62,961 nucleotides of DNA. It comes from Balneolaceae bacterium. GTDB taxonomy: Bacteria; Bacteroidota; Rhodothermia; Balneolales; Balneolaceae. Position 1 is the stretch's first letter, and each line of letters begins with the position of its first letter. A model generated the notes under the pieces. That model was not told the DNA's origin. It made no database searches and was given only the letters and a program-made list of their open reading frames with translations. Below are positions 21,955 through 44,080 of this stretch, one piece after another. The position numbers were made by a program, and so were the translations under genes. The stretch lies in the NCBI GenBank assembly GCA_007694095.1, contig RECI01000143.1:1-62961 (forward strand). Reading direction: 5' to 3'.

Positions 21955-22012
21955 AACCCGGATTAAGCGATAGACTTCGGAAGTCTTTTTCGTCTATTGC
22001 TTAATTTGGGTT
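21955..22012. repeat. Stem-loop repeat, copy A (short form)
   Basis: The left arm (21955-21975) begins AACCCGGATTAAGCGATAG and the right arm (21992-22012) begins GTCTATTGCTTAATTTGGG; 18 of 21 positions pair. The inside carries the nested palindrome GACTTCGGAAGTC. The left arm is identical to that of copy B (60873-60893). The right arm overlaps the 3' end of the phosphatase gene and supplies its final codons and TAA stop. On the minus strand it could also act as a transcript-end hairpin. Confidence 0.75.
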
Positions 22013-23095
22013 AAAAACAGATTCGATTACCGGCCCAACGGGCTTTTGATTAACGTATTCAAGCCCAAGAAACCGGGCCACCGTTTTTGCTACCTGTTTC
22101 TGATAAAGCTGCATCGGTTCTTTGACGATGCCGGTTGCAGGTGAGTCGGGGCCGATAACGGCAATCCAGATTTCTTCTGAGCCTTCTATACGAGACCCGT
22201 GATGCCGCCAGTGATCGATGGGATCGGTACCCCGGCCATGGTCGGTGGTGATAATAAGGGTGGTTTTGTCTTTGTAAACCGGATGGGACTGCACCATCTC
22301 CCAAAGTTCACGTATGAAAGCGTCTGTCTGCCGGGCAGAATAGAGGTAAGCCTGGTAATTGCCATCGTGGGCAAAGTCGTCGGTTTCGCCATATGCAATG
22401 TAAACCAGGCGCGGTTCATGTTTACGGATATGCTCAACAGCATAGTGATGTGTGAATGCGTCGAGCCGAACCGTACCCCACGGGCTGGGAATCTGGTGAA
22501 GCAGTTTATTTAAAAATACTTCCCGATCGGTGAGATCATCCCCTTCAACCGGGTCAAAACCGGCATTTACGGGAATTCCGCTTCGTTCGCTATTAATGAT
22601 ATAGGGAAAAACATCCCAGGAACCGAAAGCGGCTACTTTACCCCTGAATCCCGGCTGATTATTCACAAATTCCAGAACAGTGGTATTGGGATTCGGAATT
22701 CTGGCATTGCTGTTTATTTCTTCATCAACATAACCCACCAAAATCTCACTATAACCGGGATAGGAAAAATTAAGCCCGTTGGCCACATCTACCCTGTTAC
22801 CAAATGCACGGTTACCGTAAAGCTGCCCTTTTTCCACGATTACACTCCAGAAAAATGGCATCAGCAGCTGCTTCCTTACATCAGGGTCATCATCCCAAAA
22901 TGCTTCTGTAAGATCTTCAGAATTGCGCACATAGTCTTCGTGGGAAATCAGTTTTTCATCCGCACCGGTGTAGAGTTCCTGCCAGCGTAACCCATCTAAT
23001 GTTATCAGGAAAACATTTTCCGTTTTTAATGGATTTTGTGCAAATAGCTGTGTTCCAAAAATGAGAATAATTAGAGAAAACAGGATTTTTTTCAT
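22001..23095 (-). CDS. Exported alkaline-phosphatase-superfamily hydrolase
   Basis: 364 residues with a signal peptide (MKKILFSLIILIFGTQLFAQ). Alkaline phosphatase/sulfatase/phosphodiesterase superfamily: first metal Asp in LITLDGLRW, a candidate nucleophile region FSYPGYSEIL, and metal ligands in GETDDFAHDGN and TTDHGRGTDPIDHWRHHG. Substrate not readable; a phosphoester or phosphodiester is likely. The last residues (NPN and stop) are encoded by the arm of a dispersed repeat, so the original C-terminus may have been altered. Same direction as a second, distinct superfamily member upstream. Confidence 0.85.
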   Translation of the reverse strand: MKKILFSLIILIFGTQLFAQNPLKTENVFLITLDGLRWQELYTGADEKLISHEDYVRNSEDLTEAFWDDDPDVRKQLLMPFFWSVIVEKGQLYGNRAFGNRVDVANGLNFSYPGYSEILVGYVDEEINSNARIPNPNTTVLEFVNNQPGFRGKVAAFGSWDVFPYIINSERSGIPVNAGFDPVEGDDLTDREVFLNKLLHQIPSPWGTVRLDAFTHHYAVEHIRKHEPRLVYIAYGETDDFAHDGNYQAYLYSARQTDAFIRELWEMVQSHPVYKDKTTLIITTDHGRGTDPIDHWRHHGSRIEGSEEIWIAVIGPDSPATGIVKEPMQLYQKQVAKTVARFLGLEYVNQKPVGPVIESVFNPN

Positions 23096-23245
23096 ATCAA
23101 CATCACAGTTTTTTTAATATGGTTTTACTGGTAATTAAATGGCAGAGGGGTGGGCGAAACCGAAGATTAGAGTAATCACGTAACAGAACAACAGAGAAAT
23201 AATTTTGCTTTCCTGATTTATATCTAATCAACATGTAACAGATCC

Positions 23246-24217
23246 TTAATCATGTGTGAATGCATGTTTTACAGGACGTGCAATCCAGCCTTCAGGCGGC
23301 TCAATACCAAAAATATATGCAATGGTCGCGGCGGTATCATAGGTATTGATAAATGGCCCAAGGTCTTTGCCCACTGTAACACCTGCGCCGTATATGATCC
23401 ATGGGATCAGAATCTCATCATCGGTTGACCCTCCATGGCCAGTGCCTACTCCTCCGTGATCGGAAGAAATCATCACAACAGTCCTCCCTTTTATACCACT
23501 CTCTTCGATTGCAGCAAGTGTAGTCCCTATCAGGCTGTCGGCATGCTGAACGGAATTGTAATATTCCTGTGAACCGTGAGCAAAACGGTGTCCGAAATGA
23601 TCCACATGATCGAGCTGGATAAAAAGAAAATTGGAGCGTTCGGCCAGAATGTGTTGATTGGCTTCATGCATGGTATCTTCCGCCCATAAAACCCGGTCTT
23701 CGGTAGTTTCACGGGGTAGGTCGGGCATATAAATGGTATCCACAAAATCGTGTTCAAAAAGGCGGCCGAATCCCGGCCAGTCGTAGAATGATGCTGTGGA
23801 AAGCCCCGGTTTTTGGCTTTTCAGTGCATAAAAAACAGTGGGGAAAAAACCTCCCGGGCCCATTGTGGTTGGCGTAATCTGATAGTCGTCCTGTTCCCAG
23901 CTGTTCGACGTAATACCGTGTTGCTCCGGTCCTGCCCCCATAATCATAGACGCCCAGTTCGGGCTGCTGTTTGTAGGCATTACTGCCCGGGCAGTAAGGG
24001 TGGATGCCCCGTTTTGCATCATATAGTCAATATTTGGGGTGTGGGCATTCCGGATTCCATCGGGGCTGAGTGCATCCACCCCGATAAAAATAACATGGTC
24101 GATCCCGTTAATTCCTCTATTAGTCTCACCGTTTTGATTTGATGAACATGAGACAGCCAGAAACAAGACTATAGTACTGATTATGATGATACTGGTATGC
24201 TGAATACTTTTTTTCAT
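23246..24217 (-). CDS. Type I phosphodiesterase/NPP-like lipoprotein
   Basis: 323 residues; lipoprotein signal with the lipidated Cys at 24 (LFLAVSC). Belongs to the phosphodiesterase/nucleotide pyrophosphatase branch: VIFIGVDALSPDG metal site, nucleophile-bearing MPTNSSPNWASMI, FIQLDHVDHFGHR and SSDHGGVGTGHGG metal ligands. Predicted to hydrolyse phosphodiesters or phosphomonoesters at the cell surface or in the periplasm. Part of a same-strand run with mmsA, a glycerophosphodiesterase and the previous hydrolase. Confidence 0.87.
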   Translation of the reverse strand: MKKSIQHTSIIIISTIVLFLAVSCSSNQNGETNRGINGIDHVIFIGVDALSPDGIRNAHTPNIDYMMQNGASTLTARAVMPTNSSPNWASMIMGAGPEQHGITSNSWEQDDYQITPTTMGPGGFFPTVFYALKSQKPGLSTASFYDWPGFGRLFEHDFVDTIYMPDLPRETTEDRVLWAEDTMHEANQHILAERSNFLFIQLDHVDHFGHRFAHGSQEYYNSVQHADSLIGTTLAAIEESGIKGRTVVMISSDHGGVGTGHGGSTDDEILIPWIIYGAGVTVGKDLGPFINTYDTAATIAYIFGIEPPEGWIARPVKHAFTHD

Positions 24218-24294
24218 AACAGTTGGTTTGTAAATAATTGATGCACTTTTTTTTAATTTTTAACGCAGATGAATCAGTCCAGATACGTTTTGTT

Positions 24295-24351
24295 TTGCCA
24301 CAATGATTATCACAAAGGTTTATCTGTGTAACTCTGTGTCATCTGTGGCAA
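24295..24351. repeat. TTGCCACA...TGTGGCAA-bounded element
   Basis: TTGCCACA (24295-24302) and TGTGGCAA (24344-24351) are perfectly inverted and bracket words such as TCTGTGTAACTCTGTGTC. This resembles the larger degenerate element at 7494-7688. It lies between two hydrolase genes and has no coding potential. Confidence 0.5.
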
Positions 24352-24378
24352 CTATTAATCAAATTGAGGTTAAAATTA

Positions 24379-25188
24379 TCATTTAAAAAGCGGTTCATAC
24401 ACCGAATCGATCTGGTAATACTGAACCCCGAGGCTAAGCAGCCGCTCCACATCCTGTTTGGCGCCCTCCCATGTATCTTGCCCCGCCTGTACATACCTGA
24501 ATTCGTTCACAGCCGCCACTACAACTACGTTCAATTCATCTGCTTTTTTGATCATCTCTTCGGTTAACTGACTTGCCAGCATAAAGAGGTGATACCTGCC
24601 ACTCACATCTTCTCCGGCATTCGCCGCTTCCACCATGCCGTTAAAGCCAATGGAGTGCGAGGTGCGATCGTAAAAATACTCTTTGGCCTGGGCACTGCTG
24701 AGAATGTAGGTGGTTTCCACGAGTCCGTGCCGGATCAGCGCCTCTTCAATTTCCCGGTAAAAACCTTCAGAGAGATCATTCCCTTTTACATCGAGCATAA
24801 GTTTTGTGCGGCCTGCTGCGAGTTCAGCGGCTTCGGAGAAAAGAATCGGCCTGTCGCCGTCAATATATGACCGGAGCTGTTTGATTTCATTCCAGTCCAT
24901 TTCTTCAACTCGACGGGGATCATTATAAAAACGAAGGAAATCAGCATCATGATGAAGAATTGCCCTTCCATCCCGCGTTTCACGAATGTCCACTTCAAGC
25001 ATCCAGTAACCCCGCTCAATCGCTGAAAGCATGGCTGCCCGCGAATTTTCGGCGTGATCTTCATCTACAACACCGCCACGGTGAGCAATTAAAAAAACAT
25101 CCGGGTTCTCTGGCTGCTGTCCCTTCAACATTTCCGGCTGAAGGGACAGAATTACAGCAATTATGAGACAACAACAAATTCTGATCAT
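24379..25188 (-). CDS. Exported glycerophosphodiester phosphodiesterase
   Basis: 269 residues from the ATG at 25188 (MIRICCCLIIAVILSL), which gives a clean signal peptide and lies 13 bases after mmsA; a longer frame would overlap mmsA. GDPD TIM-barrel marks: IAHRGG, HAENS, LEVDIRETRDG, ILHHD, then LMLDVKGN and the C-terminal VQYYQIDS. Hydrolyses glycerophosphodiesters to glycerol 3-phosphate plus alcohol (choline, ethanolamine, inositol or glycerol). Cotranscription with mmsA is likely from spacing. Confidence 0.88.
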   Translation of the reverse strand: MIRICCCLIIAVILSLQPEMLKGQQPENPDVFLIAHRGGVVDEDHAENSRAAMLSAIERGYWMLEVDIRETRDGRAILHHDADFLRFYNDPRRVEEMDWNEIKQLRSYIDGDRPILFSEAAELAAGRTKLMLDVKGNDLSEGFYREIEEALIRHGLVETTYILSSAQAKEYFYDRTSHSIGFNGMVEAANAGEDVSGRYHLFMLASQLTEEMIKKADELNVVVVAAVNEFRYVQAGQDTWEGAKQDVERLLSLGVQYYQIDSVYEPLFK

Positions 25189-25201
25189 TGAAAACAGCAG
25201 G

Positions 25202-26680
25202 TTAGAATTTGCGGTCCCAGTCACGAATCCAGCGCTCCACAATCACCTTGGTCTGCGTGTAAAACTCCACAGCATGATGCCCCTGAGCGTGCAGGTCTCC
25301 GAAAAAGCTCTCCTTCCAGCCGCTGAACGGGAAGTAGGCCATGGGTGCTGCCACCCCGATGTTAATCCCGATATTCCCGGCTTTCGCTTCGTACCGGAAC
25401 TGTCTTGCTGCAGCACCGCTGCTTGTAAAGAGACATGCCATGTTCCCGTATGTCTGGCTGTTGATCAGATCGATGGCATCATCCACCGTATCCACATGCA
25501 TCAGGCCAAACAGCGGACCAAAAATTTCGGTTTTGGCTATGGAACTACCTGGAGCAACGTCATCCATGATGGTTGGGTATGCCCAGTAACCACCCTTGTA
25601 CGATTCAACATTCTTACCGCGGCCATCAACCAGGATGCGGCCACCTTCTTTTGCCCCGGTTTCAACATATCCGTAAACGCGCTCCCTGCTTTGTGCCGAA
25701 ATAACCGGCCCCATTTCGGTATCATTATCGAGGCCATACCCTACTTTGAGGCTCGCGGCCTTCTCCGTGATGGCCTTTGTGAACGGGTCCCTGGCGCTTC
25801 CAACCGTAACGGCAAGAGAGTTCGCAAGGCAGCGCTGGCCTGCACAGCCAAATGCTGAATCACCAACGATGCGTGTGGTCATGTCCATATCGGCATCGGG
25901 CAGTACAATTACCATATTTTTTGCCCCGCCCTGTGCCTGTACACGTTTTCCGTTAGCCGATGCCGTGGTGTAAATATGTCTTGCCACCGGTGTTGAACCG
26001 ACAAAACTAACCGCTCTTATCACAGGATGTTGCAGCAAAACATCAACCGCCGTTTTATCACCGTTAACAAGCTGCACCACACCGGGCGGCAGATCCAGCT
26101 GATCGATCAGCTCGAAGATTTTAACGGCCGACATTGGCACCTTTTCACTTGGTTTCAAGATAAAACAGTTCCCTGAAGCGACTGCATATGGCAGAAACCA
26201 TAAGGGGATCATCGCCGGAAAGTTGAACGGCGTGATGGCCGTTACCACACCCAGCGGCTGGCGAATCATGTGTTCGTCGATTCCGGTAGCGATATCCTCG
26301 TTATTGGTTCCCTGCATCAGCATAGGCATGCCGCACGAATTTTCTACGTTTTCGATACCCCTGCGAATTTCACCGATGCTCTCTTTATACGTTTTTCCGC
26401 ATTCATTTGTAATGATTCTGGCCAGGTCGTCGGCGTGCTCTTCCAACAGGTTTTTAAAATGAAACATATACTGGATTCGCTTTGTTACAGGTACACGGCG
26501 CCATTCATCAAAAGCTGTTTCGGCTGCAAGAATGGCCTCTTCAACTTCCTGCTTTGAAGAGATCGGCACGTTCGCTATTGCTTGCCCGGTAGCCGGGTTT
26601 ATCACTTCCCCGGTTTGGCCTGATTCCGAGTTTCTCCACAGGCCATTAATGTAATTTTTAAGTTTATTTACTGAATTCAT
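25202..26680 (-). CDS. mmsA: Methylmalonate-semialdehyde dehydrogenase, MmsA/IolA type
   Basis: 492-residue CoA-acylating aldehyde dehydrogenase that converts malonate or methylmalonate semialdehyde to acetyl- or propionyl-CoA; the last step of myo-inositol and valine breakdown. Seen: [43 protein letters not shown], the QGGAKN in place of the usual ELGGK, and catalytic C284 in FGCAGQRC, all diagnostic for this branch. Followed closely by the glycerophosphodiesterase. Its company with phosphodiesterases is one reason to consider an inositol-phosphate substrate, though valine catabolism is an alternative. Confidence 0.92.
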
Positions 26681-26835: not shown

Positions 26836-27690
26836 TCAAAGTAATTCTTTAATCCTGATATTTTTCCAGTACACTTTTTGGCCTTTCGCCCACCATGAAA
26901 TCCCGCCATGAACCTGGAGCCCGATATGTCCCTGATCGCCTAACTGTTCATAAACCCGCTCTTTATCAAAACGCGGGTGGATATTCGCAGCTGCATCGAA
27001 TTTGCCGATCATTACACCATTAATCCATGTGGTAATAATAGGGTATTTGCCTTCGCAGCGTATGCGAAGTTCATTATATTCATTTAGTTTCCATGCAGCA
27101 CGCCACTGTTCCATGGTACAGGCATAACGGTCTGGGTTTTCATCAAGATCCGGATAGAGATCAAATGGCCTCATTTCAAGATCAACAAGGTTACCGTCAT
27201 TATCAAAAACACCAAAATGCCTGAACGGTTCGGTGCGCCAGGCTCCTGTTCCCTGCCCGTACAAAAATCCGCTAATGCCGCCATTGTTGGGTTCATCATG
27301 ATAGTCAACGTAAACCTGGTAAGAGTCGCCATTGTGTGCCGAGCGAAGAAAAACCCCTGAATCGCATCCCCATTCAGGTTTTACATCAAGTATGAGTTCG
27401 AAATCGCTGTATTTTTTGTCAGTTAGCAGCACTCCACCGTTTCCTGAACCGGGAGGATCCTGCTCGCAAACAATCGTCCCGTTTTCCACTTTCCAGCTTG
27501 CACCATTAATGTGCCATCCATCCAAATTTCTTCCATTAAAAATGGAGACGAAATCATCATCACAAGCTTCAGGCAGTTTCGCTTCATTCTTTATAGCTGA
27601 GGATAAACCGATTGCCGTGGTTGCACTAAGGCCGGCAGTAAGGACAGTGGTGGATTTAAGAAACTGGCGGCGGTTAATCTGGTTATTCAT
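26836..27690 (-). CDS. Exported DUF1080 (3-keto-disaccharide hydrolase-like) protein
   Basis: 284 residues. The N-terminus has a Tat-like signal (NRRQFLKSTTVLTAGLSA). The rest is one DUF1080 concanavalin-like domain: FNGRNLDGWHI, a GVFLRS strand and the C-terminal GHIGLQVHGG, WKNIRIKEL. DUF1080 members occur in polysaccharide loci and some cleave 3-keto-glycosides; activity here is inferred only. It stands alone between mmsA and the phosphatase-like lipoprotein, same strand. Confidence 0.85.
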   Translation of the reverse strand: MNNQINRRQFLKSTTVLTAGLSATTAIGLSSAIKNEAKLPEACDDDFVSIFNGRNLDGWHINGASWKVENGTIVCEQDPPGSGNGGVLLTDKKYSDFELILDVKPEWGCDSGVFLRSAHNGDSYQVYVDYHDEPNNGGISGFLYGQGTGAWRTEPFRHFGVFDNDGNLVDLEMRPFDLYPDLDENPDRYACTMEQWRAAWKLNEYNELRIRCEGKYPIITTWINGVMIGKFDAAANIHPRFDKERVYEQLGDQGHIGLQVHGGISWWAKGQKVYWKNIRIKELL

Positions 27691-27887: not shown

Positions 27888-28802
27888 TTAATGCTTGAAT
27901 TCAAGATCAGCCACAACAGGCAGATGGTCGGACGGGAAATGGCCATCGCGGATATCTGCAAGAATACCGTGCTGAATTACGGAAAAATTCGTGTCTACAA
28001 AAATATAATCGATACGCCGGTCGGGATAAATTTCCCGGAACGCGTTCCATGTTGATGTAGGCCCATGATGGCCGTAACGTGAGTGGTAAAACCCATCGAA
28101 CAATTCCACTCTTACAGGTCCGAGTTCCGGATCGGCAAGAATTTTGTATGGATCCTGGCTCTCTACAGCGTTCAGGTCGCCCATCACAATCACAGGATCG
28201 CCACCAGAAAGTTCAGAGACTTTTTGAAGGATCAGTTTAGAGCTGTTTCGGCGTGCTTCCTGGCCCCTGTGGTCGTAATGGGTGTTGAAAACTATAAATC
28301 GTCTGTCGTTTTTTTTGTCGTATAAGCGGGCCCATGTCACAATCCTTGTGATGGCAGTATCCCATCCCATACTGCCGGGCACATCCGGAGTTTCGGAAAG
28401 CCAGAAGGTGCCATCTTCAACCAGGTCGAAGCGGTCGGATTTATAGTAGATGGCACAAAACTCGCCGGCTTCACCGCCGTCATCACGGCCAATTCCAACC
28501 CAATCGAATTCCGGCAGCATTTCATCAAGATCCCTAAGCTGGTTGATAAGCCCTTCCTGAGTGCCAACGATGTCGTTTTTATGAAAACGGAACATGCTGG
28601 CAACAAAATCCTTACGATGCGGCCAGGCATCGGGCCCATCAGCCGGATTATCGAAACGGATATTGAAAGACATCACCCGCATTGGTTCATTGATTGTGGT
28701 TGATCCACCTGAAGTTCGGCCTGTCTCAGTACATGAAGTGGCTGAAATGAGAAAAAATATAAGGCTTAAAAAAATGATGATATATTGACTGTTTGAAAGC
28801 AT
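27888..28802 (-). CDS. Endonuclease/exonuclease/phosphatase-family lipoprotein
   Basis: 304 residues, lipoprotein signal with Cys24 (ISATSC). EEP-fold motifs: MSFNIRFDN, GTQEG, NTHYDHRG, VMGDLNAV, RIDYIFVD and SDHLPVVADL, giving the full metal and catalytic set (Asn, Glu, His, Asp, Asp, His). The fold covers sphingomyelinase C-like, inositol-polyphosphate phosphatase and nuclease activities. A surface lipoprotein in a SusC/D locus with several phosphodiesterases favours a phosphoester substrate rather than chromosomal DNA. Confidence 0.86.
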   Translation of the reverse strand: MLSNSQYIIIFLSLIFFLISATSCTETGRTSGGSTTINEPMRVMSFNIRFDNPADGPDAWPHRKDFVASMFRFHKNDIVGTQEGLINQLRDLDEMLPEFDWVGIGRDDGGEAGEFCAIYYKSDRFDLVEDGTFWLSETPDVPGSMGWDTAITRIVTWARLYDKKNDRRFIVFNTHYDHRGQEARRNSSKLILQKVSELSGGDPVIVMGDLNAVESQDPYKILADPELGPVRVELFDGFYHSRYGHHGPTSTWNAFREIYPDRRIDYIFVDTNFSVIQHGILADIRDGHFPSDHLPVVADLEFKH

Positions 28803-28819: not shown

Positions 28820-31800
28820 TTAAGGTGTGATTGTCCTGGTGATTCCTGCTGAATCGAAGAACGTTATTTCCCGCATCATCCCGGTCAAAAAAACCGATCT
28901 CGCAGATTGTGATAAATAACCTGATCCGCGATAAAATTCCACTTTTTCCTGACTTCCATCCTGAAAAGTAATTATTGCCGATGTTTCGGACTCTTCTGCC
29001 CTTAACTGCTTATAACCATCAGAATGTACGATTTCAAACATTTCAGCCCGGCCATCATTTCTTGCGCTCAATACCCGTTTCCCTCCGGCCAAACCGCCAA
29101 TCGTTACCAATGATTTTCCATCCTGGTCCAGAAAAAAGCCACTCTCATCATAGCCAATGGGCTCAAAATTTCCGGTGCCGTCACCCCTCAGCATCAGTCC
29201 GCTGAAGGCATTGTAACGGCCAATAAATACGTCAGTAGAAAACGAGTTTCCTGTGAGAAGAATATCCGTGTAACCATCGCCGTCAAAATCTCCCGAAATC
29301 ATCCCATAAACCGGGGCAAACTGAGCCTCAATTGGCAATGGTTTTACATCAAAATCTTTCCCCCCCCGATTTAGAATGATGCTCGACTGAAATGTGTGGA
29401 TGCTGTAACTTTGTGCCTCGTTCAATTGACGGGCAGTTAAAATATCACCCAGTGCTGCTTCGCCGTATGATGCATAGGTTGGAAACCGGCGGGCCATTTC
29501 CGGCATTTGCATCATAAAATCATCCCGCAGGTGAATCGGGTGGCGTTCACCTGCTATGATCTGGCTTATAACGGGATCCACAATACCATTGCCGTTAAAA
29601 TCATTAATATGTATTTGTACAGGGCCTTCTTCCCTGTTCCGAAGCAAGGAATTCAGGCCGAGGTTTCCGGCCACATAGTCTGTATAACCATCCTGGTTAA
29701 AATCAGCTGCTGTGATACTGTTCCACCATCCTACAGTTTCTGCCAGGCCAAGATTTTCGGTTACATTTACCAGGTGGCCACCGCGATTTTCGAAAACAGT
29801 TATTGGCATCCATTCGCCTGCCAGGATCAGATCCTGCCAGCCATTGTTGTTATAATCCGACCATATAGCCGCAGTAACCATCCCTGTATTCTTCAGCCCG
29901 GGCGCAACTGTATCCGTTACATCTACAAATTTACCGTCAGAGAACTTCAGGATTAAACTCTCCGGTTTTTGAGGGTAGTGATTTGGCACCACCCTGCCAC
30001 CGACAAAAAGTTCAAGATTGCCATCATTATCCAGATCGGCTGCAATCACAACGGAAGTGCTCGCCCTGATGTCGGGCAATGCATCGGGTGAATGCAAGAA
30101 CGTTCCGGAGCTGTCGCCAAAATAGAGACGGTCTCGGTAATACTGTGATCCAGGAGCAAATTCACTGCCGCCACTGGCTATATAGAGATCAAGATGGCCG
30201 TTCCCGTTGGCATCAAATAAGAGCGCCCCGGTATCTTTTTCATACGCAGGACCAACATCAATATCTTGACCCGTAAATGTACCATCAGCGTTCTGCAGGA
30301 AAATTTTTCCCGATTGTCCAAAAGCCCCGCCGATAAAAAAATCGTCCAACCCGTTTTTGTTGATATCACCCACGGCAATTCCCGGGCCGGTTCTTGAAAA
30401 CTTATGGGGCAAGAGCGGCTGTATGTTAAAATCAATGAAATTATCTTCCTCGTGTACAAAATCGACACGGGCAGTTTCTGTAATGTTCTTAAAAAGAGGT
30501 TTTTTGACTGCTGCAGAATTTCTGTAGTGAACCGGGAATAATGACTGCTCCCCATAAACTACATTCGTCACACTATTTACAGGCAGTGTACTCACGACCT
30601 GCTTTTGATCATCAGGCCATATCACAACCAGCGAATCGATTTCCGTTACAGATCCCAGGCCGAAATGCACGGGTGTTGCCATTGCTGAAAGATACCCACG
30701 AGATACGGAATATTGGTGATGCAGGCTCCTACCATCGAAATAAAGTGACAACTTTGCACCTATAGCCTGGCGGTTGTGCCCGGGGCCTGAGAGCTTCACC
30801 TGTAAATAATTGTTGTCGTTTTCATTGAGGTTCCTGTAAACAAACACTTCCTGGTTGATATTGTTGATGACCAGGTCAAGACGTCCGTCATTGTTCAAAT
30901 CGGCAAATGCCGCACCGGTGGAGTATGTAGGCTCCCGAAATCCCCATTCCGGGGAAACATTGCTGAACGTAAGGTCTCCGTTATTTTTGAAGAGATAGTT
31001 TCTCTCAAAAATACCCTCCAGGTTCTGTAATTCATCATAAAGCCGCTCCATCATCCGGCGGTCAAATACACCGTTTCTCAGGATGTCCATTTTAATCTTC
31101 GAGAAATCATTATCTGCCGGATTGCGCGGCAAGCCGTTAGTTATCATCAGGTCCAGCCAGCCGTCATTATCAATATCTGCGAAAAGGGCTGACCAGCTCC
31201 AATCTGTACTTTCAACTCCGGCCAACGGGGCAATATCCGTAAACACCGGGTGGCCAAGTGGGGTAAGGCCATTATTCAGTTGCAGTACGTTCCGTTTTAC
31301 CTGTGGTTCATATCCCATTATTAGCTGGGACAGATACCGTTCGTAACCGGCGGATTCATACATCTGCTTGAGCCTCCGGTTCGATTCCGGCAGCATATCT
31401 AAGGTGATGATGTCCATAAGGCCGTTGTTGTTGATGTCACCAAAATCTGTACCCATCGATGCATAGCTTTGATGGCGAAAATAATCGGCTGCCCGGTTTG
31501 TGAATGTGCCGTCGCCGTTGTTGATGTAGATGATGTCGTTCGGTAGAAAATCATTGGCCACATGAATATCCGGCCATCCGTTCCCGTTGATGTCGAACAC
31601 ATTAATACCAAGCCCGTAGCCTTCAATCAGAATTCCTGCTTCCGTTGATACGTCGGTAAAAGTTCCATCACCATTATTCCTGTACAATCTGTCGGTGTTG
31701 ATATGTTCCCCGTTAAGCAGTTTTGGTTTGATCACATTGGGAGGTACATCACCATGGCCATTGTTGAGTACATACAGGTCAAGAAACCCGTTTTTATTAT

Positions 31801-35002: not shown

Positions 35003-36481
35003 TCAATGGCCGGGATTTTGCTCAAGTACCCCGCCGCTGATATCAATCTGGTTTTGAGGTACAGCATAGTAATAATGGCGCGGTCGCACAAAATTTCGGG
35101 GAGGATCGAACGGGCCTCTGTCTTCGCCGTAGATGGCGACGATATCCACTATGTTTGCTTTATCCCATCGCATCAGGTCGAAATGGCGCTTGTTTTCACC
35201 TGCAAGTTCTACACGCCTTTCATGAATGATGTGCTGCATTGTAGCATTCGATACAGGAGCCAGGCCACTTCGCTGTCGAACTGCATTGAGTTCCGTATCA
35301 CCATTTTGGCCAAGCCGGATTTTTGCTTCAGCAACATAAAGGTATACTTCGGCTGATCTCATAAGAGGAATATTACTATCACCACTAAGTCCACCGGCCT
35401 CCCTCCATTCCGAAAACTTTTGAAAATGGTAACCTGTAGTAGGAGACAAATCGGCTGTATATACCGTTTCCCCCCTGTCTCCACCTAAATCAAATACATC
35501 TCCGGGCCTCATGATTGAATACCCCTGTCTTGGGTCGTCGTCTTCGTATTCTTCAAGAAGATTGGGTAATGGTGCATGGAAATCCCAGCCGCCCCATGGC
35601 CTTGGCGCACTGTAAATACGGTGTGCCGGTGCATTCCAGCCTTGAGATCCGGCAACAGTAAAAAGGATTTCCGGATTATATTGCGTTTGAATCTTGAAAT
35701 TTTCCTGAAAGTTAGAAGCCAACGGATAGGGTCCGCTAATTACCTGATTGCCGGTATTTATGGCATCCTGAAAACGTTCCTGGAATGTATAGAGTTTGGT
35801 TAGAAAACCCCATGCTGAGCCTTTATTTGGCCGTCCAACATTGTTGCCTGAATGCGTGAGTGGCAATAATTCTGCGGCTTGCAAAAGATCTGATTCAATT
35901 TGCGCGTGTGTCTGCTCAAGTGTGGCACGCGGTTTATTAAATTCATTATCGATTACATCCTGTTCAAGAATGAGCGGCATTCCTCCAAATAGTTTTGCAA
36001 GATACCAGTATGACATACCACGCATGAAGTGTGCTTCTCCGAGAATTCGGTTTTTTATGCCCTGATCCATGTTTATGTTTGGAACGTTGATCAGGATGTC
36101 GTTCGAACGATTGATGATTTCATACATCGACCTCCAGGTACTTTCAAAATAGGGGTGAGAGGAATCGTAAGTGAAATTTTCGATATCTGAATGCACTCCG
36201 TGGTCACCTGCCCTGTATTGATCGTCTTCAGGTATACCAAGTAGTGTGTTAATACGATGCCCCCAAAGATTACCTGTTGCCAGCGGAGCATAAATCGCAT
36301 TAACAGCAGCTTCGGCATCATCGGCGTTCCGCCAAAAATCTTCAGATGTTGTTTGTCCGTACGGCGGTACGTCAAGTATTCCTTCATTGCAGCCGAACAT
36401 GACGAAAAACAAACCGGGTATCACGAACATTAACAATAATGTTCTCCAATTCATATGTTTTGATGTTATTAAAGTTTTCAT
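35003..36481 (-). CDS. susD: SusD/RagB-family surface nutrient-binding lipoprotein
   Basis: 492 residues from the ATG at 36481, which has AGGAT upstream and lies 50 bases after the susC stop; earlier in-frame starts overlap susC. Lipoprotein Cys31 (LFFVMFGC). SusD hallmarks: DVPPYGQTTSEDFW N-terminus, the tetratricopeptide-like helical core (MRGMSYWYLAKLFGGMPL), and the C-terminal RRVELAGENKRHFDLMRW and PQNQID. It lids the SusC barrel and binds the substrate at the cell surface. Confidence 0.95.
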   Translation of the reverse strand: MKTLITSKHMNWRTLLLMFVIPGLFFVMFGCNEGILDVPPYGQTTSEDFWRNADDAEAAVNAIYAPLATGNLWGHRINTLLGIPEDDQYRAGDHGVHSDIENFTYDSSHPYFESTWRSMYEIINRSNDILINVPNINMDQGIKNRILGEAHFMRGMSYWYLAKLFGGMPLILEQDVIDNEFNKPRATLEQTHAQIESDLLQAAELLPLTHSGNNVGRPNKGSAWGFLTKLYTFQERFQDAINTGNQVISGPYPLASNFQENFKIQTQYNPEILFTVAGSQGWNAPAHRIYSAPRPWGGWDFHAPLPNLLEEYEDDDPRQGYSIMRPGDVFDLGGDRGETVYTADLSPTTGYHFQKFSEWREAGGLSGDSNIPLMRSAEVYLYVAEAKIRLGQNGDTELNAVRQRSGLAPVSNATMQHIIHERRVELAGENKRHFDLMRWDKANIVDIVAIYGEDRGPFDPPRNFVRPRHYYYAVPQNQIDISGGVLEQNPGH

Positions 36482-36531
36482 TTTATCCTGTAATTTCTTG
36501 GTTGTTTGGGATTTATACATTATCAGATTTA

Positions 36532-39500
36532 TCAAAAATCTATCACAGTGCCGAATGTCCATGTTCTCGGTTGCGGATACTGGGCATAATCAACATTACG
36601 CTGCAGGTTGCCGTCTGTGTAGCCAAGTTCAGGATCAATTCCAGAATACGGTGTAATGGTAAACACATTGATACCAGTTACATAGAAGCGAACTCCTCTC
36701 AGTCCAACAACGTCTGTAACACTGTTTGGAAGTGCATAACCAAGTGTAAAAGATTTAAGCCTGAAGTAACTTCCATTTTCAATAAACAGATCAGATGCCC
36801 TGTGATTAAGGTTGTTTCGGAGTGTAGTCATCCTTGGAATGGAATTGCTTGTACCCTCGCCATTCCACCTGTCTATAGTTTCAGCATACATGTTGAACGG
36901 ATATGTTGGATCGAGTCCCTGCATACGGTCAGCATTAAAAATTTCAACTCCTGCTGCTCCAACAAAGTGAAGGTTCAGGTTAAAATTCTTGTACCCTGAT
37001 GACAAACTAAGCCCATAAGTCATATCAGGATGCGGGCTGCCAAGAATCTCACGATCGTCGGCTGTGATCATTCCGTCACCATTCAGGTCAACAAACCGAA
37101 CATCGCCAGGCCTGATATTGGCTCTCCTCGAGTCATTGGCAATATTAGGGTCGCTATCAATTTCTTGTTGATTTTGATAGATTCCATTTGTTCTCCAACC
37201 ATAAAACGTGGCGATCGGATGCCCCTGGAAAGTTCTTGCTAATTCCTGATTTGGCCTTCCATAAGTTGCCGAGCTAAGGAAATCATCATTAAGGTTTGTC
37301 ACCTCATTTCTAATAAAAGAGGCATTACCGGAAACTGAAAAACTAACTTCACCAACCTGACCGGAATATCCCAGTTCAATCTCAAGCCCCTGGTTACGAA
37401 TCTCGCCAACGTTTACATCAGGCACGGAAGCTGTACCTAATACTGCGAGTATTGGGGGGGCAAGAAGTACATCTTTTGAATCCCGGATAAAGTATTCAAT
37501 CGATGCGTTAACGCGGTCGTTGTACCAACGTGTATGCACACCAAAGTTGAGCATTTCTACCGTTTCCCAGGAGATATTACGGTTAGGAATCCGGGTCTGA
37601 CTGATGCCGCGTATCTGTGCACCCTGGAAACTGTATTGAGCATTCTGTGCATACAATCCAAGGAACTGGTGCCGGGCAATGGATTGGTTGCCTGAACGCC
37701 CCCAGCCAGCCGTTAATCTCATATTACTGATAACATCTCTGAAATTATCAAAAAAGCTTTCCTCTGAAATTCTCCATCCTGCTGATACAGCTGGAAATAT
37801 CCCCCAGCGGTTGTCGGCAGAAAAGCGGGAAGAACCGTCGTAACGGATGCTCGCTGTGAGGAGATACTTATTGGCAAAAGCGTAGTTTACGCGGCCGAGG
37901 TAGGAAAGCAGCGCATCTTCCACAGTTGTACCAGATGCCCCGAAGACGCTACTTCCGGAATTCAGCACACGCTGTGTTGCAGATTCGTCGGCAAAATCCC
38001 TCCTGGCTGCAGAGAAATCTTCTCCTGTGTAGGTCTCCTGAACAATTCCAGCAAGGCCATCGATATCATGATTCTGTGCGATTGTACGACGGAAATGGAG
38101 GAACAACTCAGAAGAAACCGAGGTTCCTTCACTGAAAGAACGGTTTAACTGGTTTTGAGAACGCGCCCTGATTTGCTGGTTAATAATTGGTTCAAATGAG
38201 TACGAATCATCTATTGCGTAATCAACACCTACGCTTCCTCGAATAGAGAATCCTTCAATGAGATCAATTTCGGCTTCAACATTTCCGAGAACCCTTCTTC
38301 TTTCCGTGTTTGAATCGGAATCCTGCTCTACTGTAAAAATGGGGTTGTTAATATCACCGAATTCACCACTGATTTGTGAAGAACCGTATGAACCATCCTC
38401 GAATTGAACGGGCAGACCCGGGTGAAAGCGGATGGCACTCCAGAGAACACCGGTTTGTGCCGATAGTGTGTTTAATGAATTGCCATTGGTGCGTGTTAAC
38501 GAAAGGTTTTGTCGCAGATTAATACGACTGCCAACCCTGTGATTTGAATTGATCTTCAATCCATACCGGTCAAAAAAGGATGATTTCATCATTCCCTGCT
38601 CATCTGCATAGTTACCGGAAATATAGAAAGACGAGTTACGTGTACCACCCTGTATTGAAAGGTTATAATCCTGGATAGAACCTCTGCCAAGAAGTTCATC
38701 CTGCCAGTTTGTACGTTGAGTTTGATATGTTTGATCCTCCCAAATTGGATTTATGGGAAGCCCGTCATTCACATATCTCTCACGCTTCAGCATGGCCAGG
38801 GTTGGAGCATCCAGTACATCAATTGTATTTATTGGGTTTGAAAAACCAATGGATGTATTAAACCGAACCTGAAGATCCTGATCGAACCGGCCTCTTTTAG
38901 TTGTAACCAAAATTACACCGTTTGCAGCGCGGTTTCCATAAACAGCGGCAGAAGATGCGTCTTTCAGGATATCAATCGACTCCACATCATCTGAATTGAT
39001 GTTGTTAAGGCTCTGCAAATCGGATGGCATACCGTCAATTACAATAAGCGGATTGGCGTTATTAACTGTTCCGGTACCGCGAATCCTGATGGCGCCGCCT
39101 GATCCGGGGGCTCCCCCACCCCTTACAATTTCAACACCAGATGCCTGTCCCTGCAGTGCAGTCGATAAGTTTGTGATGGGCTGATTATCGAGTTGATCAG
39201 AACGCACGGAGGCAATTGAGCCAGTGATTCTTTCCTGACGCTGCATACCATATCCAACCACAACTATATCGTCGAGCATTTCTACAGCCCTATCAAGTTC
39301 GATAATAATTACAGTGGACGAACCTATGTCAACCGTTTTATTTATATACCCTACCGATGTGATAAGGATTGTTGTGAGCCCTTCCGGAACACTGATTTCA
39401 AATTCTCCGTTAGGATTCGTATTTGTTCCAATCAGGGAACCGGTAAGCTCTTCACTGCCCTGAATCACTATGGTTGCTCCTGGAATTGGTGTTCCATCTG

Positions 39501-39975
39501 TTGCATCTCTAACTACACCACTTATTGTTTCCTGGATAATGACAGTTTCTTCTGCTTCTTCTTTTTTAACAATCAGCAGATAACCTTCTTGGGAAAATCG
39601 GAAATCAAGCCCCGTATTACTCAGAATTTTATCCAGTGCATTACTCACCCATATTCCCTCTTCAATAATAGTAACGTTCACATCAGGAATGATATCACCT
39701 CTTAGAGTGAGTTTCATTCCGGTTTGTGCCGCAACTGCATGGAGGGCATTAATTAATGGCTGATTTTGAATATTCAGGCTTATTTCTTCCTTTATATCTG
39801 TTTTGTAGAACATATTTTGCATCGCTATGATGTTTGCAAAATATTGTTCCTGATTTGTTAATGTTGGCTGAAATTGAACAGACGCATGTGCATGATTATC
39901 AGCAGCAACTGCAATTAACAAAGCAGTCAGAAGCGTGAAGGTTTTTATGATACATCTGCATTTTGGTTTTCTCAT
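36532..39975 (-). CDS. susC: SusC/RagA TonB-dependent transporter with STN domain
   Basis: 1,147 residues from the ATG at 39975, which has GGAG upstream and yields a proper signal peptide; a longer frame exists from 40047. Domains: STN signalling domain (about 68-136), carboxypeptidase-regulatory-like domain (about 151-230, GVVRDATDGTPIPGATI), TonB box/plug start DDIVVVGYG (about 235-243), plug with VRGGGAPGSGGAIRIRG and IDILKDASSAAVYGNRAANG, and the 22-strand barrel ending in a Phe. The STN domain implies signal transduction to the FecR/sigma pair upstream. Confidence 0.96.
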   Translation of the reverse strand: MRKPKCRCIIKTFTLLTALLIAVAADNHAHASVQFQPTLTNQEQYFANIIAMQNMFYKTDIKEEISLNIQNQPLINALHAVAAQTGMKLTLRGDIIPDVNVTIIEEGIWVSNALDKILSNTGLDFRFSQEGYLLIVKKEEAEETVIIQETISGVVRDATDGTPIPGATIVIQGSEELTGSLIGTNTNPNGEFEISVPEGLTTILITSVGYINKTVDIGSSTVIIIELDRAVEMLDDIVVVGYGMQRQERITGSIASVRSDQLDNQPITNLSTALQGQASGVEIVRGGGAPGSGGAIRIRGTGTVNNANPLIVIDGMPSDLQSLNNINSDDVESIDILKDASSAAVYGNRAANGVILVTTKRGRFDQDLQVRFNTSIGFSNPINTIDVLDAPTLAMLKRERYVNDGLPINPIWEDQTYQTQRTNWQDELLGRGSIQDYNLSIQGGTRNSSFYISGNYADEQGMMKSSFFDRYGLKINSNHRVGSRINLRQNLSLTRTNGNSLNTLSAQTGVLWSAIRFHPGLPVQFEDGSYGSSQISGEFGDINNPIFTVEQDSDSNTERRRVLGNVEAEIDLIEGFSIRGSVGVDYAIDDSYSFEPIINQQIRARSQNQLNRSFSEGTSVSSELFLHFRRTIAQNHDIDGLAGIVQETYTGEDFSAARRDFADESATQRVLNSGSSVFGASGTTVEDALLSYLGRVNYAFANKYLLTASIRYDGSSRFSADNRWGIFPAVSAGWRISEESFFDNFRDVISNMRLTAGWGRSGNQSIARHQFLGLYAQNAQYSFQGAQIRGISQTRIPNRNISWETVEMLNFGVHTRWYNDRVNASIEYFIRDSKDVLLAPPILAVLGTASVPDVNVGEIRNQGLEIELGYSGQVGEVSFSVSGNASFIRNEVTNLNDDFLSSATYGRPNQELARTFQGHPIATFYGWRTNGIYQNQQEIDSDPNIANDSRRANIRPGDVRFVDLNGDGMITADDREILGSPHPDMTYGLSLSSGYKNFNLNLHFVGAAGVEIFNADRMQGLDPTYPFNMYAETIDRWNGEGTSNSIPRMTTLRNNLNHRASDLFIENGSYFRLKSFTLGYALPNSVTDVVGLRGVRFYVTGINVFTITPYSGIDPELGYTDGNLQRNVDYAQYPQPRTWTFGTVIDF

Positions 39976-39983
39976 GGAAACAA

Positions 39984-39987
39984 CTCC
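39984..39987 (-). promoter_or_regulatory. Shine-Dalgarno selecting the susC start
   Basis: GGAG on the minus strand, 8 bases before the ATG at 39975. This favours 39975 over the upstream in-frame ATGs at 40047/40044. Confidence 0.55.
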
Positions 39988-40213
39988 ATTATTAGTAGTT
40001 AGAGATTGAAGGTTGTTGAAATGAATTTTATACAAGGCATTCATCACTTTGACAGAATGAATAAAAGTGTTGCCGTTTTACCATTCATCATATCAGACAA
40101 TTTGAAAACGTTACACCCTGCATCCTTCACTGCAAAATTGTTTCTGTAAAACAATTTTGTTGTTCTGCTGTCCAATCCATTTATTTAATGCAGTCTGTGG
40201 TGCGTGGGGTTCA

Positions 40214-40424: not shown

Positions 40425-40456
40425 AAAAGCAGGCCCGAATTATTGAGCCTGCTTTT
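40425..40456 (-). terminator. Intrinsic terminator after the MFS gene
   Basis: Stem AAAAGCAGGC / GCCTGCTTTT with a 12-base loop. On the minus strand the GC stem ends in an uninterrupted run of T, about 40 bases after the MFS stop. A strong terminator separating the MFS transcript from susC. Confidence 0.9.
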
Positions 40457-40493: not shown

Positions 40494-42047
40494 CTAGAGT
40501 TTTTCAATTTGATACCCGCCTTTTTTCTTGTCTTTCAGATAGACTACCAAAAAGACAATAGCAAGCAGAAAAGCAAAAGGAACACCATAAAGGAAGGAAA
40601 CACGCCCACCGTAATTATCGGCCGGTCGAAGCACTGCAAACGCCCGTTCTGTTAATTCCTGTTCCTGTGCAATTCCGGAATCCAGCAATGCCCTCATTGT
40701 ATCAGCTGTGTACCTGCCATGAAATTCGTTATTTTCTCTGTAGTAGCTCAATGATTGCTGTGCAAGATTCAGAACAGTTTCGACATCGGCTTGTGTAAAA
40801 CCAAGTTCCATTAACCTGTCAGTATCTCCGCCTGCAGCTCTGGCTTGTGCAACATATCCGGGAAACCGGTCGTCAATTTCTTCAAGTATGAGAATAGTTT
40901 GCTGTTCATCAAGGGCATCCGGAATGTACCTGTCAGCGATTTCACCCATTACGGCATTCGATATTCCGGCACCGACAAAACCCATACCCATCAGCAAAAT
41001 CAAACCGAGTGACCCTGCCTTAGGAAACCGTTCGCTCATAAAACCAACCATTGTTGGGAAGTAGAATGTAATACCTACAGCAAAAAATGTAGCGGCGATC
41101 ATCAGCGGCACAATTCCGGATTCTATGAAAGAGAACAACAATAGGCCAATTGCTGTAAATATTGATGCTCCCAGCAACATACCAGGTGGTGAAAATCTTT
41201 CTACAAATGGGCCTGCAAAAAACCTTAAAGTCATCATTATTCCGCTTATCCAAACAAAGACCAGCATTCCATGCACACCGGCTGCCTGCAATACTTCAGG
41301 AATCCAGCGGCTTGGCCCCATTTCAAGACCAAGGCTTATCATTTTCAGAAATATTAAACCCCAGATTAATGGATGTGTAAATGTATACCTGAACATTTCC
41401 CTGATTGGAACACCAGCTTCGGCAATAAGCGTTTTCGGAAAGTTTTCTGTGAGAAGTAAATAACCATAAATTAAAACAGGAATATAAACTATGGATATTT
41501 GGAAAGTCCAGTGACCGATATTCAATGGCCCAAGCACACCGATTTGAACCATTGCCCATCCGAGTAAACCGCCGAATACCATTCCTCCAGGGAAGAATGC
41601 ATGGAAGTGATTTAATTTTGTTACTTTATTATCAGGAAAAAGTGCAGCCGTGAGCGGATTACCGGTTACCTCTATTAAACCATTCCCAAGGCCAAATCCA
41701 ACAGCTCCAAGAAAAAGAATCCAAAAAGCGTATGGTTCACCCGCAAATGGGTAGGCCGCAAGAAACAGGGTAACGCCGGCAAGGTGACAAACAAATGCAC
41801 CTCGGGCAGCGTTTTTAAACCCAATTTTCTCAAGAAACGGGCCGATGGTAAGTAATCCAATAGCCATACCCCAAAGAGCAGCACCTCCAATTACACCCAC
41901 ATGAGCATTTGAGAGTATAAATTCTGTTTTTAGTTGTTGCAGAACATTACTTACAAGAACGAAAGAAAAAGCTGTTGGCAGAAGAGCCAGGCATATGCCT
42001 GAAAACAGTTTTTTCCGGTTTACTGTCCCATCACCATTTGTAGACAT
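40494..42047 (-). CDS. Major facilitator superfamily permease with an inserted loop domain
   Basis: 517 residues with twelve predicted TM segments. The first half has GNGLIEVTGNPLTAALFP and NHFHAFFPGGMVFGG, a pattern reminiscent of FucP-like sugar permeases. Between TM11 (about 345-370) and TM12 (about 484-504) lies a hydrophilic insertion of roughly 110 residues (DALDEQQTILILEEI...LRPADNYGG), which is unusual for MFS. Placed between susC and fecR, it is the likely inner-membrane importer of the product released by the locus; the substrate cannot be read. Confidence 0.85.
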   Translation of the reverse strand: MSTNGDGTVNRKKLFSGICLALLPTAFSFVLVSNVLQQLKTEFILSNAHVGVIGGAALWGMAIGLLTIGPFLEKIGFKNAARGAFVCHLAGVTLFLAAYPFAGEPYAFWILFLGAVGFGLGNGLIEVTGNPLTAALFPDNKVTKLNHFHAFFPGGMVFGGLLGWAMVQIGVLGPLNIGHWTFQISIVYIPVLIYGYLLLTENFPKTLIAEAGVPIREMFRYTFTHPLIWGLIFLKMISLGLEMGPSRWIPEVLQAAGVHGMLVFVWISGIMMTLRFFAGPFVERFSPPGMLLGASIFTAIGLLLFSFIESGIVPLMIAATFFAVGITFYFPTMVGFMSERFPKAGSLGLILLMGMGFVGAGISNAVMGEIADRYIPDALDEQQTILILEEIDDRFPGYVAQARAAGGDTDRLMELGFTQADVETVLNLAQQSLSYYRENNEFHGRYTADTMRALLDSGIAQEQELTERAFAVLRPADNYGGRVSFLYGVPFAFLLAIVFLVVYLKDKKKGGYQIEKL

Positions 42048-42097: not shown

Positions 42098-43162
42098 TTA
42101 TTCTGTAATAAAAAACACAATATTCTTCGCTTCCCTGGTAAAACCGATTCCCATAGATGCCGATATAACCGTAAGTATTTCATTCAATTCCGCATATTGG
42201 AATGTTCCGGTGAATGGAATATCATGTAAATTTTTTTCTGCGATAGTTATATTCAAATCAAACCTTCTTTCAAGATCCTGAACTGCCTGCTTAAAAGGTG
42301 TATTATTAAAGTGAATGCCCCCGCTTGTCCAGAGTAGATGATATAAAACATCTGTTCCCACGGCAGGTTTTGGGTTTTGTCCTCTTGAAATTTGTGTTTT
42401 GGTACCTTTTACCAAAATCACTTTTTCCGGCTCTTCTATCATATCATCTGAAGAACTAACAGAAACCATCCCATCACTAACCACAACCTGGACCTCATTA
42501 TCTTCGCTCCATCCGCGTATATTAAATTCCGTGCCCAGTACTTCAATAACAGCGTCCTGGACGTGTACAACAAATGGATTATTTTCGTTGTACGTTACTT
42601 TAAAATAGGCCTCTCCATCGAGATAAACTTCCCTCTTGTTACCTTTAAATTCCTGGGGAAATTGCAACTGACTTGCCGAATTCAGCATAACCTCGGTTCC
42701 ATCGCTAAAACGCACTCTTGCTTTTTCACCACGATCTGTTTCCATTTTTTTAAGGGTGTAAAATCCATTTTGTTCTGCACTTATCTCCTGTATGATATTG
42801 TTCTGAGATATGCTATATGCAAACAGTCCTGCAAGCGCTATTACAAGAATTGATGCTGCCAATTTATAATAACCAACACTTGATTTGTAATGTTTAATAC
42901 TTTTCGATTCAGCCTTCACCGAATTGAATCTTGCCCGTTGAATAGCCTTTTTTCTTTCCTGGAATTTCATCCATGCAACCTCCACGTCAACTGAAAAATC
43001 TTCCTGAGGGGTTAAGTTCCAGATTTTTTGTAAATCCTGGATCAACTCTTTATTCAACGGATCAGATTTGATCCACTCCTCAACAATTTTTTTTTCTTCA
43101 ACAGAAGCATTACCAGCTATATACGTTACGATAATACCCTTGTTTTCAGTTTTTGATTTCAA
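42098..43162 (-). CDS. FecR-family anti-sigma factor
   Basis: 354 residues. Cytoplasmic N-terminal anti-sigma region, one TM segment (about residues 97-115, AASILVIALAGLFAYSI), the FecR domain (KARVRFSDGTEVMLNSASQLQFP, VLGTEFNIRGW), and a C-terminal DUF4974 domain (FNNTPFKQAVQDLERRF) related to STN, which contacts the SusC signalling domain. The start is TTG at 43162 with a well-placed GAGG; an in-frame stop lies a few codons upstream and no ATG is available. It should hold the ECF sigma factor inactive until SusC signals. Confidence 0.93.
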   Translation of the reverse strand: MKSKTENKGIIVTYIAGNASVEEKKIVEEWIKSDPLNKELIQDLQKIWNLTPQEDFSVDVEVAWMKFQERKKAIQRARFNSVKAESKSIKHYKSSVGYYKLAASILVIALAGLFAYSISQNNIIQEISAEQNGFYTLKKMETDRGEKARVRFSDGTEVMLNSASQLQFPQEFKGNKREVYLDGEAYFKVTYNENNPFVVHVQDAVIEVLGTEFNIRGWSEDNEVQVVVSDGMVSVSSSDDMIEEPEKVILVKGTKTQISRGQNPKPAVGTDVLYHLLWTSGGIHFNNTPFKQAVQDLERRFDLNITIAEKNLHDIPFTGTFQYAELNEILTVISASMGIGFTREAKNIVFFITE

Positions 43163-43169
43163 CCGGATG

Positions 43170-43173
43170 CCTC
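43170..43173 (-). promoter_or_regulatory. Shine-Dalgarno selecting the fecR TTG start
   Basis: GAGG on the minus strand, 7 bases before the TTG at 43162. It decides the start in the absence of any ATG. Confidence 0.6.
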
Positions 43174-43364
43174 TATTTATTTTCTCTTATAATTCATCCT
43201 GCAAACAGTTACCATAATTACCGCCTCAATGTACTTCGTTGCTTAGAATCAATTTGTGTTAAATATCATATTGTTTCACAGTCAACATCAGGAGTAATTG
43301 AGCTGTTCAAACTAATAAAGGAAACAACTGAAAGTGCTATCACCCTTAACCTGATTATGATAAT

Positions 43365-43386
43365 TTAACAATTAATTAATTGTTAA
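43365..43386. promoter_or_regulatory. 22-base perfect AT palindrome upstream of fecR
   Basis: Arms TTAACAATTAA and TTAATTGTTAA form an uninterrupted perfect dyad about 200 bases upstream of the fecR start. A dimeric repressor or activator site is the simplest reading; cruciform or terminator roles are less likely because no GC stem or T tract is present. Confidence 0.5.
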
Positions 43387-43516
43387 GTAATTATCGCAAT
43401 AATCAGTTACCGGGGGATTTTATTGTACATCAGAAACAGTAAAAAGAGAGGGTAAACCTGTAAATGATAAAAATTTTTGCCTCCTCCAGTGATCGAATAA
43501 CTCATGATCAGAATAT

Positions 43517-44080
43517 TCAAATCAATAGATAAGACAATTTCTTTCTCAAAATTTTAAGTGTACGCGACATCTGAGACTCTACTGTTTTTACCGAAACATC
43601 CATTACACCGGCAATTTCATCATATGTAAGACCATCTTGCCTGTGAAGCATATAGGTCATACGGCTTCTCTCAGGCAATTCCTCAATGGCATTTTGTATG
43701 GCAGCCCGAATCTGTTTTTCTCTCCTTTCATCAATATACCCGGTTTCTTGCTGATAATAATCCTCTAACCAGATTGGATCATATTTTTCCTTGATTTGAA
43801 GATGTTTGATATGATTGAGGCATTTGTTTCTTACTATTCTATAAAAATAAGACCGGACAGACCCATTAATTTCCCATGAATCACCTGAAATCCAAACATC
43901 TGTATACGTTTCCTGTACGATCTCTTCTGCAACAGCTTTCGACTTTACATAACGCCAGGCAAAGCGCGATAATGACTCATAATATTTTTTGTATAAAATT
44001 TCGAAAGCATATTCTTCTTTTTCCAGAATAAATTCCTGCCACAATTCCTGGTCGTTATCCGGCTGATCCCAGTTCTTCAT
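43517..44080 (-). CDS. ECF RNA polymerase sigma factor, Bacteroides-expansion type
   Basis: 187 residues. Region 2 (FEILYKKYYESLSRFAWRYV, AEEIVQETYTDVW) and region 4 (LPERSRMTYMLHRQDGLTYD, VKTVESQMSRTLKILRKKL), joined by a short linker, with no region 1 or 3. It is of the family co-encoded with FecR and SusC in Bacteroidota and should direct transcription of the susC/D genes when released by the neighbouring FecR. First gene of the locus, with 568 gene-free bases upstream. Confidence 0.94.
   Translation of the reverse strand: MKNWDQPDNDQELWQEFILEKEEYAFEILYKKYYESLSRFAWRYVKSKAVAEEIVQETYTDVWISGDSWEINGSVRSYFYRIVRNKCLNHIKHLQIKEKYDPIWLEDYYQQETGYIDERREKQIRAAIQNAIEELPERSRMTYMLHRQDGLTYDEIAGVMDVSVKTVESQMSRTLKILRKKLSYLLI

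Follow-up and report, generated by a model that had tools for sequence, protein, structure and literature searches.

A Balneolaceae SusC/D locus with phosphoesterases is a candidate for the use of inositol-containing phosphodiesters

Composition of the SusC/D locus

We analysed a window of 62,961 nucleotides (contig RECI01000143.1 of assembly GCA_007694095.1, positions 1 to 62,961; contig 161 of its genome) from a Balneolaceae bacterium, the genome of which (G000; 4.56 Mb, 99% complete) is called the window genome below. The locus in question runs along the minus strand from position 44080 down to 22001 and combines a SusC/SusD pair with phosphoesterases, a quinohaemoprotein and an MmsA/IolA-type dehydrogenase. 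An earlier note on this DNA had named the gene families and placed them on one strand, and profile searches confirmed all of them at their coordinates on the minus strand.

The locus starts with an extracytoplasmic function (ECF) sigma factor (43517-44080; Pfam Sigma70_r2/r4_2), orthologues of which (56-59% identity) are encoded upstream of the orthologous FecR-SusC-SusD genes in two relatives, G012 and G016. It is followed by a FecR-type anti-sigma factor (42098-43162; PF04773 and PF16344), with 48% identical orthologues in the same two genomes, and by a major facilitator superfamily (MFS) permease (40494-42047; PF07690), a candidate inner-membrane carrier for the released product. An intrinsic terminator (40425-40456; consensus scan and fold, z -6.1) occupies the gap between the permease gene and susC. 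The SusC-type TonB-dependent transporter carries an STN domain (36532-40047; orthologues of 70-89% identity in G011, G012, G016 and G018), and the SusD-type surface lipoprotein (35003-36562) has orthologues of 65-89% identity in four other genomes of the genus. The two genes adjoin on one strand, as in a polysaccharide utilization locus, and a second terminator stands 3' of susD (34928-34980; fold -22.1 kcal/mol, z -5.5).

Downstream lie the enzymes. A pyrroloquinoline quinone (PQQ)-type quinohaemoprotein dehydrogenase (PQQDH, 32579-34735; PF01011, 653.6 bits) has orthologues of 65-89% identity in four genomes and a fragment in G018; orthologues of the MFS permease (71-72% identity) are encoded directly upstream of it in G005, G012 and G016. 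Next come an FG-GAP/ASPIC-UnbV lipoprotein (28820-32461; orthologues in G011, G012, G016 and G018), an EEP-fold lipoprotein (27888-28802; PF03372, orthologues in four genomes), a DUF1080 protein with a Tat-like N-terminus (26836-27690; PF06439 above its cut-off, E=1.7e-32, orthologues of 64-88% identity) and MmsA/IolA, a methylmalonate- or malonate-semialdehyde dehydrogenase (25202-26680; TIGR01722, 569.6 bits against a cut-off of 448.5). The series closes with a glycerophosphodiester phosphodiesterase (GDPD, 24379-25242; PF03009), a phosphodiesterase lipoprotein of the nucleotide pyrophosphatase/phosphodiesterase (NPP) type (23246-24217; PF01663, E=5e-33, with NPPs as nearest PDB relatives) and a divergent alkaline-phosphatase-superfamily enzyme (22001-23095; weak matches to PF01676, PF00884 and PF01663), which has orthologues of 66-84% identity in G005, G011, G016 and G020. 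We refer to the last two by their first coordinates, 23246 and 22001. SusC/D is paired in the window with phosphodiesterases and phosphatases, the gene content of the Flavobacterium Pus loci considered below.

The two strong terminators probably divide the region into at least three transcription units. Judged from spacing and terminators, the likely units are the sigma factor gene; FecR-MFS; SusC-SusD; and all genes from PQQDH to 22001. The terminator that the earlier note had placed after susD is real, but the one between the MFS gene and susC had been overlooked. The susD terminator was missed by the consensus scan, probably because of its long loop, and was recovered by folding. The longest open reading frames (ORFs) start too far upstream for susD, ASPIC and GDPD. 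The susD start is probably downstream of the first ATG, since orthologue translations contain an in-frame stop. The orthologues of ASPIC and GDPD also begin later than these frames; for GDPD the start is probably near the internal MIRICC.

Conservation of the enzyme block in the genus

Conservation and co-occurrence were counted over 28 genomes of the genus, in which the close relatives are Balneolaceae metagenome-assembled genomes and Rhodohalobacter sulfatireducens WB101. The gene set is no chance assembly: PQQDH, DUF1080, MmsA and GDPD adjoin one another in six genomes (the window genome, G005, G011, G012, G016 and G018; 52-91% identity), and the block recurs in five genomes besides the window genome. 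The scattering of these genes among relatives that the earlier note had named as adverse to a shared function was looked for and not seen, and SusC/D orthologues accompany the block in G011 and G012. They lie on separate contigs in G016 (block on contig 57, SusC/D on contig 61) and G018, and no orthologue of the window SusC/D was found in G005, though that genome has the block enzymes. Close DUF1080 orthologues are confined to the five other block carriers, and PQQDH orthologues always lie within the block.

The remaining genes are less constant, and gene order and content of the block differ between genomes. Among the five other blocks, EEP is present in four, ASPIC in four and the 22001 gene in three (G005, G011 and G016). 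The MFS gene is found in all three relatives whose contigs extend to its site, and between SusC and Lrp the gene order of G011 is that of the window. The 23246 gene has a close orthologue in G011, a shortened one in G020 and no others among the genus genomes. Contig 97 of G020 (13323-17753 of the fetched locus L060) carries what may be a remnant or variant of the block, with MmsA, the shortened 23246-type gene and a 22001-type gene; a small ORF at the expected place of GDPD (15204-15662) is transposase-like as judged by eye.

When 84,980 species' genomes were scanned with the DUF1080 alignment, the block came up in Balneolaceae only; the scan relied on two short peptide patterns and did not return G005 or G012, so that relatives were possibly missed. 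Around the distant DUF1080 matches (Planctomycetes and others), the other block genes were absent within the fetched flanks.

Linkage to inositol catabolism and PI-PLC genes

The earlier note had proposed a link to inositol catabolism, and this link is supported by iol genes within or adjoining the block in relatives, by the missing iolA of the inositol operon in the window genome, and by the co-occurrence and synteny of phosphoinositide phospholipase C (PI-PLC) genes. In G012 the interval from susD to the MFS gene is occupied, on the same strand, by a short-chain dehydrogenase/reductase gene, iolB, iolC, a gene for an aldolase and iolD; the IolD and IolC encoded there score over the curated cut-offs. 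One stretch of G005 encodes a calcineurin-like phosphatase, PI-PLC, a SusD remnant, DUF1080, EEP and GDPD, then MFS-PQQDH-EEP-DUF1080-MmsA-GDPD-22001, and continues after 22001 with a sodium symporter, iolG, iolB, iolC, an aldolase gene (iolJ) and iolD.

The window cluster itself is without iolB, C, D, E and G. These are on contig 185 of the window genome, where iolE, iolD, an aldolase gene (iolJ), iolC, iolB and iolG are accompanied by a sugar-type ABC transporter and a LacI-like gene; the window-genome orthologues of IolB and of the aldolase match KduI/IolB and Cgl0159. No iolA was found in this operon, and the window MmsA is the sole methylmalonate-semialdehyde dehydrogenase found in the genome. 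G006, G010 and G024, which have iol genes and no block, encode an MmsA (61-62% identity) inside the iol locus. In G020 the iol locus is without MmsA and an 81% identical one lies elsewhere.

Eleven of the 28 genomes are iol-positive. MmsA occurs in 10 of these and in none of the 17 iol-negative genomes (Fisher p ~8e-7, kinship ignored), and the counts for PI-PLC are the same (10/11 against 0/17; p ~8e-7, kinship likewise ignored). All six block carriers are iol-positive (Fisher p 0.001, again ignoring kinship).

The PI-PLC genes (PF16670) adjoin SusC and SusD genes in G000, G006, G011, G012, G016, G018 and G024, and in G017 the PI-PLC gene adjoins a SusD gene and an ABC gene of the inositol-locus type. 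In G006 an NPP-bearing SusC/D locus and a PI-PLC SusC/D locus flank a gene for a GDPD that is 76% identical to that of the window. Outside the genus, SusC and SusD homologues were present near PI-PLC in 11 of 17 loci examined (L106-L122, PI-PLC-C1 genes), often together with ECF sigma/FecR genes and a calcineurin-like phosphatase. In the window genome (contig 268, 1-13824) and in G018 (contig 392), the SusC/D-PI-PLC locus (L066 and L072, respectively) stands beside a Gfo/Idh-type oxidoreductase, DUF1080, glucuronate isomerase and mannonate dehydratase, a gene set that suggests a glucuronosyl-inositol phosphate substrate.

The PQQ dehydrogenase and the hydrolases

PQQDH is nearest to the glucose/quinate type, and it has the quinoprotein propeller domain, with alignments to 1kv9, 1yiq and 1kb0. 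The protein is probably a lipoprotein, as predicted from LQAC. Its cytochrome c motif (C491xxC494H495) belongs to a domain inserted in the propeller before the last blades, whereas the cytochrome c domain is C-terminal in the solved quinohaemoprotein alcohol dehydrogenases that were aligned; the predicted structure is of low confidence (mean pLDDT, the per-residue confidence score, 54). The PQQ biosynthesis proteins PqqE and PqqC were not found in 58 genomes, in a search in which no control genome exceeded the cut-off either. PQQDH may oxidise a polyol or may take part in sugar removal with DUF1080; both roles are possible. A PQQ-dependent inositol dehydrogenase, GOX1857, is known in Gluconobacter (Hoelscher 2007, as cited in PMC8102297). 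DUF1080, whose current Pfam name is '3-keto-disaccharide hydrolase', comprises known or proposed 3-ketoglycoside hydrolases partnered with dehydrogenases (PMC9007349). A general pairing of PQQDH with DUF1080 was considered and rejected, as DUF1080 was a neighbour in 1 of 20 PQQDH paralogue loci.

Among the phosphoesterases, GDPD has the motifs H-R, E-x-D and H, invariant in all six orthologues. The EEP profile matches PDB 4c1r, deposited as 'mannosyl-6-phosphatase' (E=7e-61), and the lipoprotein is a candidate inositol-phosphate or sugar-phosphate phosphatase; its predicted structure is of low confidence (mean pLDDT 62). Profile searches returned no PDB relative of the 22001 enzyme.

Elsewhere in the window, positions 46420-49640, upstream of the locus, hold ordinary Fe-S assembly genes (Nfu, a class V aminotransferase of the SufS kind and a SufBD core protein), and a FAD-dependent oxidoreductase (PF12831) is encoded at 61164-62894.

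Discussion

We propose, with a probability of roughly 0.7, that this SusC/D locus handles a phosphodiester which contains inositol and feeds inositol catabolism. The compound would most likely stem from an inositol lipid, as a head group or by deacylation, and be glycerophosphoinositol or a glycosyl-inositol phosphate. In the route we envisage, in which the enzyme activities, the order of steps, the substrate and the regulation are all predicted from gene families, the SusD lipoprotein would bind the compound and SusC would carry it across the outer membrane, with uptake under the control of the ECF sigma factor and FecR. GDPD and the NPP-type enzyme would split the phosphodiester, and the EEP and 22001 enzymes would take off the phosphate. 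PQQDH and DUF1080 might remove a sugar after oxidising it, or PQQDH might oxidise the polyol. The MFS carrier, along with the sugar-type ABC transporter of contig 185, would bring the product in. IolG-E-D-B-C and the aldolase of contig 185 would then convert inositol to malonic semialdehyde, and the window MmsA, acting as IolA, would complete the route by converting malonic semialdehyde to acetyl-CoA.

Several observations weigh against this proposal. The terminators divide the region into several units. The six block genomes are kin, and the counts are therefore not independent. The window SusC/D is of another subfamily than the PI-PLC-linked pairs (33% identity for SusC), so that the two pairs may import different inositol compounds. 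The iol operon and the PI-PLC loci of the window genome are on other contigs, which makes the linkage there indirect, and the IolG and IolE of contig 185 score slightly and well below their curated cut-offs, respectively. A wider version of the proposal, tentative and on the whole unlikely, has the SusC/D-PI-PLC locus of contig 268, the window locus and the inositol breakdown genes of contig 185 forming one dispersed system for the glycosylated inositol phosphates of eukaryotic membranes (like glycosyl inositol phosphorylceramides, with glucuronosyl-inositol phosphate head groups); the window PQQDH-DUF1080 pair would then strip sugar by oxidation.

Phosphate scavenging offers another account of the same genes. 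Flavobacterium Pus loci couple SusC/D with phosphodiesterases and phosphomonoesterases and are induced by phosphate depletion (PMC8115612), and the several phosphoesterase families of the window would suit a SusC/D pair that imports organic phosphate generally, the use of inositol carbon being incidental. We regard this as rather unlikely: such scavenging gives no obvious place to the mmsA and iol genes, PQQDH and DUF1080 of the block, the block is confined to iol-positive genomes, and it is an ECF sigma/FecR pair that stands next to susC, with no phosphate regulator among the Pfam-scanned genes of the region. The phosphoesterases might instead be bystanders, and the locus might degrade a polyol or a glycoside (galactinol or another inositol glycoside, for instance) through oxidation by PQQDH and cleavage by DUF1080. 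This would fit the partnership of DUF1080 proteins with dehydrogenases (PMC9007349) and the finding that the six genomes with close PQQDH orthologues are also those with close DUF1080 orthologues. GDPD, however, is present in 6/6 blocks, EEP in 5/6 and 22001 in 4/6, so that the linkage of the phosphoesterases is about as tight as that of the redox pair, and the rarity of DUF1080 beside PQQDH paralogues elsewhere (1/20 loci) also makes this explanation improbable.

Unrelated neighbours, in several transcripts with separate functions and with MmsA alone serving inositol catabolism, would be compatible with the two strong terminators, the variable order and content across genomes, and the restriction of close 23246 orthologues to two relatives. 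That PQQDH, DUF1080, MmsA and GDPD stay joined in six genomes while the iol genes and the MFS gene moved around makes us doubt this strongly. GDPD-family enzymes are able to act on teichoic-type or polyglycerol-phosphate polymers, and phosphoesterases are present in the window; a polymer of this kind, which the earlier note had offered as an alternative, nevertheless seems a very improbable substrate, for the linked genes are those of inositol and not of glycerol or ribitol.

Comparison with known systems sets the proposed inositol phosphodiester locus apart from each of them. It resembles the Flavobacterium PusCD loci in that phosphodiesterases and phosphatases replace glycoside hydrolases beside SusC/D; those loci are defined by induction on phosphate depletion, whereas the window locus, known here from its genes, is linked to genes of inositol catabolism and possesses an ECF sigma/FecR pair of its own (PMC8115612). 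With the IolCatGC inositol clusters it shares an iolA-type MmsA, the iolB, C, D, E and G genes being in the same genome, and in or beside the same locus in relatives; it differs in that iolA sits in a SusC/D-phosphoesterase locus and the aldolase is Cgl0159-like. According to the IolCatGC survey, only 3% of Bacteroidetes species have such clusters, and Balneolaceae are not named in the text of the survey (PMC9430895). As in the 3-ketoglycoside pathway, a DUF1080 protein and an exported dehydrogenase are found in one cluster, but the dehydrogenase is here a PQQ-type quinohaemoprotein rather than LacABC or Gfo/Idh (PMC9007349); neither of the latter adjoins DUF1080 in the window, where PQQDH stands instead. 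PQQDH is like GOX1857, as the latter is described in PMC8102297, in being a predicted PQQ-dependent enzyme with a possible polyol substrate, and differs from that description in that it is probably a lipoprotein, has a cytochrome c domain inserted in it and occurs in a genome that also has IolG. PusCD loci (PMC8115612) and clusters of iol genes (PMC9430895) are known separately, and a search of open-access literature gave no case in which the two are combined and iolA lies in a SusC/D-phosphoesterase block. Nor did we find there any published SusC/D locus linked to inositol catabolism.

SusC/D loci are usually taken as glycan systems. The locus described here provides a sequence-defined, testable case in which a SusC/D pair, phosphodiesterases and inositol catabolism would form one route, and it offers candidate substrates for uncharacterised families: the alkaline-phosphatase-superfamily group of the 22001 enzyme, this EEP group and the PQQ dehydrogenase with inserted haem domain. 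If the proposal is true, inositol lipids and inositol phosphates would be a carbon source for some Balneolaceae, and the PI-PLC loci with SusC/D outside the genus suggest that SusC/D pairs may capture the head groups of inositol phospholipids more generally among Bacteroidota.

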